Below are positions 43,001-49,000 of a stretch of DNA of 64,000 nt, piece by piece (the first letter of the stretch is position 1; each line of letters begins with the position of its first letter). The position numbers were made by a program, and so were the translations under genes. Location: assembly GCA_004794655.1 (NCBI GenBank), contig SMMW01000650.1:868001-932000 (forward strand), read 5' to 3'. This stretch comes from Marisa cornuarietis (lineage: Eukaryota > Mollusca > Gastropoda > Architaenioglossa > Ampullariidae). The notes beneath the pieces were generated by a model that searched no databases, had not been told where the DNA came from, and worked only from the letters and a program-made list of their open reading frames with translations.

Positions 43001-44921
43001 TATCAGTTATACAAACATTGTGACAGTAAAACCTCTTCAATGAGACTTTCTGTACTGTGACCCCCCCTCCACCCACCCACACTTTTGGATACAACCAAAA
43101 ATACTTTCATGGACATATATCTTCTATATAAATCTCATCTCTATTACAATTACCTCCCCAACATGACTCATGACCACTATTTGTGTTCTAATACCACCTT
43201 TTGCAAAAGTCATGTTTAAAACACATTTGCATATTGTAATACTTTTCTTTATCGCTTTTGTTTTGCTTGGTTATGCTTACTGATTATGCCACTGTTGGCC
43301 TTGGTTGAAGATTTATTGGGATATTAATTCTCCAGGTAAGAACAAGGGATCTATACCCATGTACTGTGGTAGATAAATATTCTCTCTCAAAACGTGGCAT
43401 ATATTTTTTAATGTGACTTCTGCAAAAAATGTTGCAAGAGAGCACAAACAGATGGTCACAAGAATCTTATTTTTATAAACATGTGACTTCAGCAAAAGGT
43501 CGTTAATGAAGCACAATTGACTCATGTGTGCTGGTAAACAAAAAGACAACAATAAAAGGAGGCTGGACATTTTGGCCCCAAACCATATTGACATCCCACC
43601 TCCATCTATTTGACTTCATGATGACCAGTTTTAAGAGCTTTATTTTCAACAATTAAATAAATAAATTTATACAGATGTGTGAAGTCATGATTCATGGAAT
43701 GAAAGCACACCGGTCAATTTCCCTACTAATACCCCTCTCAATTAAGACCTGATAGGGAGAGTTTACTGCAGTACATGTGCTATTTCCTTTTTGAAAATGA
43801 ATCTTGACACAAAAGCAGGAATACATGCATGCTTGCTCTTTCATACAATTGTTACAGGACTGTACTAAATCTAAATGTAAGAATGCAGATGTTAATACCA
43901 GAGACCAGAGTTATTTCAAGACAGAAGCTTTTCTTTCTATAGTTCAACTTGCTTTATCATCACCTTCTTTTTGGAACACGTATGAATGCTTCACACAAGA
44001 GATGTCCATCATCTGACTTAGCATTTCTGATGGTGTCATATAACTCCTGGCATATTTCTTGCTGGTGACAAAGTTAAACATTTTTTTATGTCTAAAATAA
44101 AAGATACTAAAATGTGTGTTTAAAAAAAAAACATGTAAAACTTTGGAAATTAAACTGTAGGTGGTAATAGTACAATGTTATACAAGATTTATAAATGCTC
44201 TGATACAATGTTTTATCCCTCTAAATTTAACTCATTACCCAATACAAAAAGCAGTAAGCATTGTCATCACAATGCACAGAAAGAGGTCAACAACAAAGAG
44301 ATCCAGATTTTACACCTACATCCTAGTGCCAAGTACTCCCCAGTCCATTCCATCAAATGCTTATATCTTACCCAACTGCTTACTGAACTACTAGGGCTAT
44401 CTATGTAACCCATCCTGATAGATCAAGTGATGCTCTTATTTACATAGCTATGCTTTGGATGCAGGTATTTTAAATTTTGTGATGCTAGTGATCTAGTGAT
44501 GCTCTTATTTACATAGCTATGCTTTGGATGCAGGTATTTTAAATTTAGTTTTACCCAGTCATTAGAAAAAAAATTGAATTCCACTAGTATAATCTGTTCT
44601 CAACACCATAAAGTTTATTTTATAGAAGTATGATATTCACACTTGGATTCCAACATTTTTCACGTTTATTTGCTACTGGCCTAGTGAATATAAACTTTCC
44701 ACAAACAAGCATTGGTCAATGCAAATAAACTATAGAGTCCATATATGTTATGAAAAAACATCCAGACTACAGATTTAAAGTTACTAATACAAAAACGGAC
44801 TTATAGCACTTACTGGGTCATATTGCAAGACTTTCTTCTTCTTTTTGACTGGTTGTGAAGGCCCAGATGAGTCATCAAAGTCATCTCTTCCATCTTGAAC
44901 TTTCCTTCGTTTTGATGGCAT
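10263..44921 (-). CDS. PBRM1: Polybromo-1 (BAF180), PBAF chromatin-remodelling subunit, complete coding region
   Basis: Coding exons in transcription order: 44814-44921, 43964-44061, 42446-42593, 41766-42026, 40902-41117, 38196-38363, 37868-37959, 37231-37455, 36757-36826, 36102-36200, 35826-35879, 35166-35216, 32383-32538, 31289-31420, 30033-30199, 29674-29800, 28984-29151, 28460-28597, 28055-28146, 27598-27640, 26717-26803, 26133-26357, 25653-25735, 25039-25177, 24793-24894, 24295-24369, 23909-24064, 23316-23397, 22734-22809, 22213-22385, 21850-21947, 21363-21434, 19312-19464, 19015-19140, 18678-18870, 15900-16025, 14667-14939, 10810-10912, 10263-10494. The sum is 5187 nt (1728 residues plus stop) and every junction keeps frame. 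The order is a basic N-terminus, six bromodomains, two BAH domains, an HMG box, then a Pro/Gly/Gln-rich tail ending in a conserved ALWALRDLMLKDTL block. Human PBRM1 is of similar length and order. The protein reads acetylated histones in the PBAF SWI/SNF complex in the nucleus. Exons were placed by eye; borders may be off by a few bases. Confidence 0.95.
10913..14666 (-). other. PBRM1 intron with LINE tail
   Basis: No additional exon was recognised. It contains the 12250-12470 LINE tail described separately and GT/CA-rich patches near 13650 and 13830. The open frames have no recognisable domain. Confidence 0.5.
12250..12470 (+). mobile_element. L2/CR1-like LINE 3' end with (ATC) tail
   Basis: On the plus strand RFKKRLKTHLFI followed by a stop is the typical carboxyl end of L2/CR1-type LINE ORF2. 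It is followed by T-rich sequence, then the block GAGCATTCTTCCGAATGGAT and an ATC-repeat end. This is a 5'-truncated insertion inside a PBRM1 intron, opposite in orientation to the gene. Confidence 0.65.
17030..17330. repeat. Degenerate tandem repeat rich in TTTACATGCACA
   Basis: The words TTCACATTTACATGCACAC, CATATTTACATGCACAAAA, CACATCTACATGCACACAAA and CAAATTTACATGTACACAG recur at roughly 20-25 bp spacing. Copies are diverged and spacing irregular, so this is an old minisatellite-like array. Confidence 0.6.
17453..17480. repeat. Compound C/(AC) microsatellite
   Basis: An uninterrupted run of C is followed by about eight AC units, inside a PBRM1 intron. Length polymorphism would be expected. 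Confidence 0.8.
18678..19464 (-). CDS. PBRM1: PBRM1 HMG box and preceding linker
   Basis: Exons 19312-19464, 19015-19140 and 18678-18870 (about residues 1328-1484). The HMG box reads SGYIVFAGEIRKAIQNENPD, SSFGDISRIVGLK, WRTLSKEDKEKYEDRAKRIA, matching the single HMG box of PBRM1. It is followed by a Ser/Pro-rich segment. The 19015-19140 exon has a tandem CAGCAG acceptor at 19141-19146, so inclusion of one extra Gln is possible. Confidence 0.92.
19575..21003. repeat. AT-rich inverted repeats flanking a LINE fragment
   Basis: The left arm at about 19619-19655 reads ATTCATTCTATAATTATAGG and continues GATGCATTCTAT. The reverse complement of the right arm at about 20910-20945 reads ATTCATTTTATAATTATACA then ATGCATTCTATAG. 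Further related words extend out to about 19575 and 21003. The arms enclose the LINE fragment at 19690-20850, as if the LINE had entered an AT-rich palindromic element. Confidence 0.5.
19690..20850 (+). mobile_element. Internally deleted LINE fragment, related to the 5.3-7.6 kb element
   Basis: On the plus strand there are endonuclease-side remnants (ILQYYAPTEKTTEKEKELL) and RT carboxyl remnants (GLKIHTDKTKL, then DFNYLDSYVS and KIKSWLKRFEGGCLRQILRI). The end reads PQMDTTRRKKGRPL and LCSSWSEEN-like residues in shifted frames. The RT core is absent and there are several frameshifts. The layout (FxYLxS, LRxILxI, Gly-Arg-Pro, WSEE end) matches the same broad LINE type as 5266-7560. It sits in the PBRM1 intron 19465-21362. 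Confidence 0.75.
21363..23397 (-). CDS. PBRM1: PBRM1 BAH domain 2
   Basis: Exons 23316-23397, 22734-22809, 22213-22385, 21850-21947 and 21363-21434 (about residues 1161-1327). Landmarks are DCVYVRSDRDYPLIARIDKI, FFHGCWFVRPSEIEHSPTRL, IIGKCCILHIKEY, FDIYICESKYHELEHSIKRL and DDEIYFFRKPI. The donor of exon 22734-22809 was set at CCAGT|GTCAGT because only that choice keeps phase with the next exon. Confidence 0.92.
23909..25735 (-). CDS. PBRM1: PBRM1 BAH domain 1
   Basis: Exons 25653-25735, 25039-25177, 24793-24894, 24295-24369 and 23909-24064 (about residues 976-1160). Landmarks are YKIGDFVYIEPR, GSWFYRPPETYHLATRKFLE, GRCYVMFVKDYFKLRPE, RDVYVCESRYNVRNRCFKKI and VWQVPRNDSIGILPRDLPL. This matches the first of the two bromo-adjacent homology domains of human PBRM1, which are proposed to contact PCNA and chromatin. 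Confidence 0.93.
26133..28597 (-). CDS. PBRM1: PBRM1 bromodomain 6 (atypical) and charged linker
   Basis: Exons 28460-28597, 28055-28146, 27598-27640, 26717-26803 and 26133-26357 (about residues 781-975). Landmarks are VQELIRNLFISTYNSQ, DDEGRCYSDSFAELPE, LLTFDQIKRNID, VFEKARKFSRIDSQLYEDAV and LLFIKIRDELCKNGELLL. No canonical YN is present; the aligned site reads FS. Human bromodomain 6 is also atypical, so loss of the acetyl-lysine Asn appears old. The block ends in a strongly charged Glu/Lys segment. Confidence 0.88.
27928..27998. repeat. Recent 37-bp tandem duplication
   Basis: A 34-bp block beginning TTAACTTCATGAGTCACCAA occurs identically at 27928-27961 and 27965-27998 in the PBRM1 intron between exons 28055-28146 and 27598-27640. 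Identity suggests a recent event. Confidence 0.9.
28984..29800 (-). CDS. PBRM1: PBRM1 bromodomain 5
   Basis: Exons 29674-29800 and 28984-29151 (about residues 682-780). The block reads SQKLQDMYETVRDYQDRAGR, FIKLPLKS, DYPDYYEVIKKPMDMQRIQQ, and QMFDNACKYNEPESVIYK with the canonical Asn. The helix C end continues in exon 28460-28597 (DALTLQRVVFEKKMEL). A 200-bp MITE with 8-bp target duplications lies in the intron at 29258-29457. Confidence 0.92.
29258..29457. mobile_element. 200-bp hAT-type MITE with 8-bp target duplication
   Basis: The ends CCGCAATTCTCAACCT and, in reverse complement, CTGCGTTTCTCAACCT form imperfect terminal inverted repeats. The element is flanked by perfect GGTTAGCT at 29250-29257 and 29458-29465. 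The interior has G-runs and the word CGTCACAAGTAAAAGGTT near the end. No coding capacity. Located in the PBRM1 intron between the bromodomain 5 exons. Confidence 0.85.
29850..29897. repeat. (CA)n microsatellite
   Basis: About 46 bp of CA units with single interruptions (ATG, ACG), just upstream of the bromodomain 5 exon (minus strand). Confidence 0.9.
30033..32538 (-). CDS. PBRM1: PBRM1 bromodomain 4
   Basis: Exons 32383-32538, 31289-31420 and 30033-30199 (about residues 531-682). A basic, Lys-rich linker (MPTPKTKRRSECEVKKKT) leads into LRKRLNILYRIVYEYQ, then DYPDYYQVIMEPIDMTMIEA and LMFNNARHYNEEGSQVYQDA, with the canonical Asn. Intron 30200-31288 holds an L2-like LINE tail; intron 31421-32382 holds another interspersed repeat. 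Confidence 0.92.
30905..31165 (+). mobile_element. L2/CR1-like LINE 3' tail
   Basis: On the plus strand FKSSFKLNLFKKYFE and a stop resemble the ORF2 terminus of L2-type LINEs. About 130 bp of 3' UTR follow, ending in an (ATTATA)-like tail near 31141-31158. The insertion is 5'-truncated, in a PBRM1 intron. Confidence 0.6.
31586..32100. repeat. Interspersed repeat with L2-tail-like edge
   Basis: ATTATTAATTATTAAATAAA is followed by a sequence containing TATAGTGCCTTTCCCCTTGC and CTCAGAGCAATTTACATATA, a type of word common in LINE or SINE 3' regions in animals. The right part includes GGTCCGAACCCACAACAG, weakly like a B box. The family was not identified. Confidence 0.4.
32539..35165 (-). other. 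PBRM1 intron, mostly unassigned
   Basis: Apart from the candidate microexon at 34860-34871 and an AC microsatellite near 34474-34496, I see only AT-rich sequence. A 14-bp tRNA A-box-like word lies near 33523 but no tRNA fold follows. Confidence 0.45.
34860..34871 (-). CDS. PBRM1: Candidate 12-nt cassette microexon of PBRM1
   Basis: On the minus strand a T-rich tract ending in TTTTTTTAG is followed by GCAGCCATCATG and a strong donor GTAAGT. If used it would add Ala-Ala-Ile-Met between the 35166-35216 and 32383-32538 exons without shifting frame. It is not counted in the 1728-residue model. There is no transcript evidence, so this is a motif-based candidate only. Confidence 0.3.
35166..35216 (-). 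CDS. PBRM1: PBRM1 short linker exon between bromodomains 3 and 4
   Basis: A 51-nt phase-0 exon (DGAEDETPLNVSPFPLA, about residues 514-530) bounded by CATCAG and GTAAGTAAG. The sequence is acidic then hydrophobic, with no known domain. Because it is phase 0 on both sides, it could be skipped without frame change. Confidence 0.65.
35826..37455 (-). CDS. PBRM1: PBRM1 bromodomain 3
   Basis: Exons 37231-37455, 36757-36826, 36102-36200 and 35826-35879 (about residues 364-513). An acidic stretch (QSEDDDTASSQMDFEGD) precedes FLKLPSKKFYPDYYKEIKKP. LNLIFENARKYNQDESK carries the canonical Asn. The last exon reads DACTLQRVLLERKRELDK. The spacing of donor sites after helix C matches bromodomains 2 and 5, consistent with tandem duplication of an ancestral bromodomain exon set. 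Confidence 0.92.
37868..41117 (-). CDS. PBRM1: PBRM1 bromodomain 2
   Basis: Exons 40902-41117, 38196-38363 and 37868-37959 (about residues 206-364). The block reads FQLLPSRV, then KYPEYYQVIKNPIDLKMIAT and LNLMIRNAQTYNEPKS, with the canonical Asn in TYN. The third exon holds DACTLKKIIMTKKLELE, the end of helix C. A mariner element sits in the intron between the first two exons. Confidence 0.92.
38535..38975. repeat. Long-TIR element, left half (copy 1)
   Basis: The body at about 38650-38970 (TCATGCTTACCAATTTTGCC to TGCTGGTAAACAAAAGTGAC) is directly repeated at 43236-43560. The flank at 38535-38645 (AAATTGACCAGTCTTTCATT to GCTCTTAAAACC) is present in inverted orientation at 43620-43725. Together the copies imply one element family with terminal inverted repeats of about 100 bp, each copy keeping only one end. 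Confidence 0.55.
39066..40452 (-). mobile_element. Mariner-type DNA transposon, inactive
   Basis: The ends GGGCCGTTCAAAAGTT (plus strand, near 39069) and, in reverse complement, GGGCCGTTCAAAAAGTT (near 40450) form inverted repeats that continue to GCCTCACC. TA dinucleotides flank at 39064-39065 and 40453-40454. On the minus strand a mariner transposase is readable: FTTVKK-like residues, DDRRLTVQQIAKSTGISSGS, LSARWFPRMLTPEQ, VTQEETGF, LLQDNAPIYSA. The first catalytic site, normally VTxDETW, reads VTQEETG, and there are stops and frameshifts. It lies in the PBRM1 intron between the bromodomain 2 exons and contains a nested LINE tail at 40068-40221. Confidence 0.9.
40068..40221 (+). mobile_element. 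LINE 3' tail nested inside the mariner
   Basis: A 154-bp insert flanked by a perfect 14-bp duplication TATACCTTTATTTT (40054-40067 and 40222-40235). On the plus strand it encodes TWNDITKLATDRQKWRSLVD, then a LINE-type carboxyl end, finishing with TAAGTAAGTAAG repeats. It is a 5'-truncated retrotransposition event that broke the mariner transposase frame. Confidence 0.8.
41265..41345 (-). repeat. SINE-like repeat, copy 1
   Basis: The reverse complement (GTTTACAGGGCTGGCTGCTT, then GATATAGCCTTAGTTGCTG and GTAAAACACC) matches 60395-60470 on the plus strand. The pair shows a dispersed short repeat; the second copy also has an upstream B-box-like segment. Located in the PBRM1 intron 41118-41765. 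Confidence 0.5.
41766..44061 (-). CDS. PBRM1: PBRM1 bromodomain 1 and following acidic linker
   Basis: Exons 43964-44061, 42446-42593 and 41766-42026 (about residues 37-205). Visible landmarks are QELYDTIRNAKSDDGHLLCE, ADYYDVVTTPIDLLKIQQKL and MINNAKAYYK, then an acidic linker. The position that is usually the acetyl-lysine-binding Asn (YN) reads Tyr (AYYK), as in the human first bromodomain, so an atypical pocket is conserved. The introns between these exons hold a MITE-like repeat and half of a long-TIR element. Confidence 0.9.
42727..42885. mobile_element. hAT-type MITE, second copy (degenerate)
   Basis: Shares with 29258-29457 the words GGTTCTCAACCTGTG, GTGCTGACAAGG, CATATC-GTATTAGTG and GGCGTCACAAGTAAAAGGTT. 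The right inverted repeat is truncated and no clear 8-bp duplication was found. Confidence 0.7.
43236..43725. repeat. Long-TIR element, right half (copy 2)
   Basis: Counterpart of 38535-38975. The body is in the same orientation, the terminal part inverted. It ends with TTCATTCCATGAATCATGAC (read as reverse complement) and further words towards 43760. Confidence 0.55.
44426..44546. repeat. Tandem duplication, period 69 bp
   Basis: A 52-bp block starting AGTGATGCTCTTATTTACAT is identical at 44426-44477 and 44495-44546, inside the first coding intron of PBRM1. Confidence 0.9.

Positions 44922-49000: not shown

Follow-up and report, generated by a model that had tools for sequence, protein, structure and literature searches.

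In the genome of the gastropod Marisa cornuarietis the genes for polybromo-1 (PBRM1) and for the nucleostemin-type GTPase GNL3 adjoin each other in head-to-head orientation. The pair lies in a 64-kb stretch, C529:868001-932000, which is part of a 2.33-Mb contig of the 534-Mb genome; this stretch is called the window below, and coordinates are counted from its first base unless the contig is named. PBRM1 occupies the minus strand (coding sequence from 44921 to 10263) and GNL3 the plus strand (46140 to 59438). Each is the sole gene of its kind found in the genome. We consider it very probable that the adjacency was inherited, and of the possible readings, descent from a pair shared with human is clearly the strongest. 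As an overall explanation we favour, with moderate confidence, an inherited divergent pair that uses one bidirectional initiation region and is retained because the two genes are entangled there.

The PBRM1 model is an exon chain with GT-AG splice sites imposed by the method, and three places in its 3′ half (exons near 22809, 18868 and 16025) are modelled inexactly. A 1,005-residue part of the model matched human polybromo-1 (PDB 7y8r) at E 1.1e-300, which was the best PDB match. Pfam analysis of selected exons found, in order on the minus strand, the bromodomain (3 exons), the BAH domain (2, one of them below the Pfam cut-off) and the HMG-box (2, the second in an inexactly modelled exon, as are two junctions). 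Several bromodomains together with BAH domains and an HMG box are the combination by which polybromo-1 is recognized, and the model shows it. The GNL3 model, whose second exon extends from 46755 to 46807 (plus strand), matched human GNL3 (PDB 8fkp) at E 2e-112 and carries the domains of the family: PF08701 (GN3L_Grn1, 64.4 bits) and PF01926 (MMR_HSR1, 62.7 bits). The exon models, together with the domain and structure matches, bear out the claim of an earlier note on this DNA that PBRM1 (minus) and GNL3 (plus) are divergent neighbours.

In whole-genome searches all strong matches to a set of PBRM1 pieces, as well as all strong GNL3 matches, were on C529. Elsewhere GNL3 had three short matches (C390 twice, C505); off-contig matches of pieces of either gene were short and 40-54% identical, which is what unrelated members of the GTPase and bromodomain families would give. 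Since its strong matches are confined to C529, the snail GNL3 represents the state before the vertebrate duplication, one gene that is co-orthologous to both nucleostemin (NS, human GNL3) and GNL3L. One GNL3-type copy is described as the rule outside vertebrates in a published account (PMC9449814), and one copy was found in the snail genome. The top GNL3 homologue among the best 120 of 4,414 came from the caenogastropod Batillaria attramentaria (63% identity), and most of those next in rank were from other molluscs. A tree built from 27 selected proteins grouped the snail GNL3 with Batillaria (92/68) and then with Littorina (100/98). The earlier note had suspected an invertebrate host from the repeats, which these results confirm; the grouping with gastropods rules out a vertebrate origin of the sequence, named in the earlier note as grounds for giving up its claim.

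Features of the PBRM1-GNL3 region (window coordinates)
Feature	Position	Strand	Remarks
PBRM1 (polybromo-1) coding span	10263..44921	minus	33 candidate coding exons; bromodomains, BAH domains, HMG box, conserved C-terminus
PBRM1 first coding exon (MPSKRRKVQDGRDDFDD...)	44814..44921	minus	donor GTAAGTG
PBRM1 5′ untranslated region (5′UTR) piece above ATG	44922..44942	minus	predicted acceptor (TTTCTTTTAG) just upstream; splice-site scan, prediction only
Candidate PBRM1 non-coding first exon region	45817..45894	minus	YY1-like AACATGGCGGC, upstream open reading frame (ORF), weak donor 45817; inferred
CpG-undepleted interval, proposed shared promoter	45400..46400		CpG observed/expected (o/e) 1.10
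YY1-like AACATGGCGGC	45884-45894	minus	reads toward PBRM1
ZNF143/SBS-like site TACATATCCCATTATGC	46063..46079	minus	TACANNTCCCANNATGC matched exactly at 16 places in 534-Mb genome, this one included
Palindromic E-box CCACGTGG	46087..46094		sole copy in window; CACGTG core 9 times in window
GNL3 coding exon 1 (ATGGTTGGATTGA)	46140..46152	plus	
GNL3 coding exons 2-17	46755..59438	plus	full model 17 exons, 614 aa; GN3L_Grn1 + MMR_HSR1

If about 20,000 genes are assumed, two named single-copy genes should be immediate divergent neighbours by chance in roughly 1 of 40,000 cases, and it is because of this low value that we regard the arrangement as very probably inherited. Independent arrival, in which PBRM1 and GNL3 became neighbours separately in molluscs and vertebrates, would have to overcome this chance for the named pair, with both genes single-copy in the snail; nothing was found to speak for it, and it is hardly credible. 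The view that the pair predates the protostome-deuterostome split is supported by inference, from one mollusc and human.

The start codons of the two genes are separated by 1,218 bp. The ORF listing showed no intervening gene: the single stop-to-stop frame of at least 80 aa between the ATGs (101 aa, 44959-45264) looked non-coding by eye, and the pair has the head-to-head arrangement of a bidirectional promoter, defined here by divergent starts less than 1 kb apart. The earlier note had placed the pair at 44814-46807, with starts about 150 bp apart. The ends of that span hold, as they are the donors of PBRM1 exon 1 and GNL3 exon 2, but the distance is wrong for the coding starts; only transcription starts could be so close.

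A short distance between the transcription starts is possible only with a non-coding PBRM1 first exon. The human pair at 3p21.1 is head to head, with a non-coding first exon of PBRM1. In the snail, a good predicted acceptor, with 44942 as first exon base, precedes the ATG of PBRM1 by 20 bp, and therefore at least one non-coding exon is predicted upstream. The predicted donor of this exon is ambiguous: either a weak one at 45817 (AG/GTATGA) or a strong one at 45111. In human promoters a YY1 motif is common just downstream of a start (PMC11118474); if the YY1-like site is taken to mark the PBRM1 start in this way, the predicted transcription starts of PBRM1 and GNL3 would be about 200 bp apart, a value that is a guess. 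If the ATG inside the YY1-like site (45891, minus) is part of the PBRM1 5′UTR, a 9-codon upstream ORF (MAAVLMLLS) would start there.

The interval between the genes differs from the genes themselves in CpG content. Against the o/e value given in the table, the bodies of PBRM1 and GNL3 had 0.25 and 0.47, respectively, and none of 90 overlapping one-kb gene-body windows was as high. The CpG signal is promoter-like, but not unique. The E-box CCACGTGG, the ZNF143-like site and the YY1-like site occur once each in the window and all fall within 45884-46094, the first two located 46-77 bp above the GNL3 start codon. When 45700-46139 was shuffled 5,000 times with dinucleotides preserved, nine shuffles reached three of the nine panel motifs, and none contained all three sites. 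A scan of the same segment with the motif panel found no NRF1, ETS, SP, CRE, E2F or CCAAT site, and the TCT-type initiator YCTTTYY had no plus-strand match in 45700-46200. A ZNF143-type gene is present on C460; measured against an approximate human query, its finger exons show 75, 86 and 88% identity. Judged by its undepleted CpG and these three sites, the interval looks like one promoter.

Human bidirectionally transcribed promoters that have a ZNF143 motif near the divergent starts and a YY1 motif just downstream of a start are described in a preprint (PMC11118474). The snail interval would resemble them in its ZNF143-type site and YY1-like motif, and differs in lacking, within 45700-46139, the six other site types named above.

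The mechanism that we propose is as follows. PBRM1 and a single ancestral GNL3 would have stood head to head since before the mollusc-vertebrate split, served by one open, CpG-rich initiation region firing in both directions. The GNL3 side of this region would carry the ZNF143-like site and the E-box, and the PBRM1 side would be marked by the YY1-like site. Because the putative core promoter elements of two housekeeping genes would lie within about 250 bp, a chromosome break inside the interval would disable one gene, and rearrangements would be selected against. Entanglement, more than any benefit of co-expression, would thus keep the pair together. The shared initiation region, factor binding and constraint on the interval are what we infer from these features; selection on a shared PBRM1-GNL3 promoter, to which the earlier note had pointed, is plausible but unproven from the sequence.

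PBRM1 and GNL3 also adjoin in a published human gene list, where their neighbours include NT5DC2, GLT8D1 and SPCS1 (PMC4101866). Families of these neighbours were searched for in the whole snail genome, with only the best candidates scored. The NT5DC2 family had 18 matches (C426, C37, C504), the SPCS1 family one (C84) and the GLT8 family five (C508, C405, C498), none of them on C529. Approximate queries for human SPCS1 and GLT8D1 gave no convincing match in 264 kb around PBRM1-GNL3. The snail locus differs from the human one in its neighbours, since all the relatives of GLT8D1, SPCS1 and NT5DC2 that turned up lie on other contigs, and also in that human GNL3 is one of two paralogues whereas the snail GNL3 is single.

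As a positive control we looked at HSPD1-HSPE1, a classical divergent pair that is head to head in human. The only Cpn10 match was at C426:2693688 (plus), and a Cpn60/TCP1-family gene extended downward from C426:2690890 (minus), so that the two are head to head, about 2.8 kb apart. This pair of housekeeping genes thus appears to be kept in the snail genome too, and in being head to head and apparently kept it resembles PBRM1-GNL3. The HSPD1 and HSPE1 proteins work in one complex; PBRM1 and GNL3 are not known to share one.

Several observations weigh against a constrained shared promoter. The start codons are 1.2 kb apart. The CpG value of the interval ranked 61st among 2,630 overlapping one-kb windows in 264 kb, and with this rank a CpG island unique to the interval was rejected. 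The panel of motifs was drawn up only once those in the interval were known, and six of 2,396 real 440-bp windows in the 264 kb reached three of eight panel motifs, at three places including the interval. The ZNF143-like pattern had 16 matches in the whole genome compared with 3 for the reversed pattern; five of the 15 other sites were read, one of which was in an alpha-tubulin-like frame (by eye) and two in CpG-poor DNA. Since the pattern occurs in coding-like and CpG-poor DNA, it is by itself no promoter mark, and after these five sites had been read its excess was dropped as promoter evidence. At the level of gene order, GLT8D1 and SPCS1, a head-to-head pair in human, are unlinked in the snail as far as family matches show. 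PBRM1 and GNL3 are not known to be adjacent in Drosophila or Caenorhabditis elegans, so that the linkage is probably not universal.

The same observations bear on a neutral explanation, namely that the adjacency is ancestral but owes its survival to chance, both genomes being slow to rearrange, and that the short gap contains two promoters that work independently. The 1.2-kb distance between the ATGs, the CpG-rich stretches beyond the interval, the apparent loss of the pair in fly and worm and the dispersal of GLT8D1-SPCS1 all speak for it, and the comparison covers two genomes only, gastropod and human. Two findings argue the other way: relatives of three other human neighbours are on other contigs, which indicates that the region was reshuffled around a persisting pair, and a second classical head-to-head pair, HSPD1-HSPE1, was apparently kept. 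We regard survival by luck as unlikely, but as an alternative to be taken seriously.

A further alternative makes the pair a bystander of a regulatory block, held in place by long-range enhancers of a developmental gene within PBRM1 introns. For human, one table row in a review has PBRM1 with SEMA3G, TNNC1 and NT5DC2, which we read as the predicted targets of the block (PMC6906185). NT5DC2-family matches were absent from C529 (SEMA3G and TNNC1 were not searched for), and a bystander model leaves the head-to-head order unexplained. We consider it very improbable, and retain the inherited divergent pair with a bidirectional initiation region as the preferred explanation.

The position of the snail gene beside PBRM1 is relevant to a question on which published accounts disagree, namely which of the two vertebrate copies descends directly. 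The snail protein carries GN3L_Grn1, as does every row viewed among 120 listed for human NS, and this domain is absent from the precomputed domains of all eight listed vertebrate GNL3L rows. Five invertebrate GNL3 proteins were 50-61% identical to four GNL3L compared with 40-45% to five NS, and by path length in the tree all 18 invertebrate rows were nearer GNL3L (mean 1.42) than NS (2.74); the comparison is uneven, with hand-picked rows from five mammals for NS and from frogs, gar and coelacanth (4) for GNL3L. An approximately unbiased (AU) test did not reject a vertebrate clade (p 0.15). Position and the GN3L_Grn1 domain suggest that it is NS that occupies the ancestral locus, whereas the sequence as a whole points to GNL3L. 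The two results are compatible if NS and GNL3L are copies of one locus and NS kept the address but evolved faster.

We therefore put forward, tentatively and at slightly less than even confidence, that NS, which is beside PBRM1 in human, holds the ancestral address, because the invertebrate GNL3 adjoins PBRM1. The duplicate, GNL3L, would have been separated from PBRM1 while retaining the more ancestral sequence. On this view address and sequence went different ways once the gene had been duplicated, and divergence would have affected the copy still attached to the promoter shared with PBRM1. The GNL3L duplicate is probably an ohnolog. On Xp11 GNL3L has ITIH6 nearby, and on 3p21 NS has the ITIH cluster; neighbourhoods of this kind would fit a whole-genome duplication.

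Conserved ancient divergent pairs are a known kind of arrangement. Neighbours kept across phyla, with proposed shared cis-regulatory elements, were described as ancient metazoan microsyntenic pairs by Irimia et al. (2012), as reported in PMC5429095. PBRM1-GNL3 would likewise consist of two neighbours kept across phyla, with the difference that the evidence here comes from one mollusc, compared with human. That survey may already include the pair; in the open-licence literature that was searched, no statement was found on the PBRM1-GNL3 pair in invertebrates. Constraint on non-coding DNA can seldom be traced between phyla unless the DNA aligns, and divergent pairs of deep conservation are one of the rare exceptions. 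In this case the partners would be a subunit of the PBAF chromatin complex and a GTPase of ribosome biogenesis.

The flanks of the pair in the snail are formed by IFT122, a CAMK1-like kinase and NEK/ULK-like kinases. IFT122 exons are downstream of GNL3 (C529 about 951-952 kb, minus; PF25295 at 79 bits and, under the curated cut-off of 75, at 67 bits). CAMK1-type kinase exons are past the PBRM1 3′ end (C529 about 823-846 kb, plus), and their joined pieces had CaMK1D and CaMK1 as best PDB matches. Apparently two tandem NEK/ULK-like kinase genes lie at C529 about 1022-1038 kb (minus), some 95-111 kb beyond GNL3. NEK4 is a human neighbour of GNL3. The NEK/ULK-like exons gave 31-59% partial matches to an approximate NEK4 sequence and similar ones to an approximate NEK11, a similarity too low to name the orthologue. 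IFT122 and CAMK1 are also on human chromosome 3, far from PBRM1; an old chromosome that was reshuffled internally while PBRM1-GNL3 stayed would fit these flanks.

The introns of both genes contain additional elements. Human GNL3 is a host gene of small nucleolar RNA (snoRNA). Rfam found no snoRNA at the gathering score in the window, and near GNL3 there was one chance-level match only. A sequence resembling U6 small nuclear RNA is located in a GNL3 intron (53360-53460, plus) and matched the model over its full length at 72.5 bits; a comparison by eye with U6 showed internal changes and a missing stretch, which make it a probable pseudogene. Transposase-like reading frames were seen by eye in a GNL3 intron (55601-56668, plus), and it is partly because of them that the gap between the exons 54425-54536 and 57118-57183 is long. 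A PBRM1 intron contains Mariner/Tc1-like reading frames (39281-39981, minus; by eye), of which the frame 39610-39981 had weak Pfam helix-turn-helix matches only.

Reverse-transcriptase-like frames of the long interspersed element (LINE) type were noted by eye on either side of the pair (5801-6428; 61336-62634, minus; C529 about 984-991 kb). A DALRD3-like (DALR domain) frame past the PBRM1 3′ end (863-1210, minus) was without a Pfam match. Finally, a large acidic low-complexity region that looks coding (C529 about 964-982 kb, plus) had one weak Pfam match and adjoins the highest CpG peak of the 264 kb.

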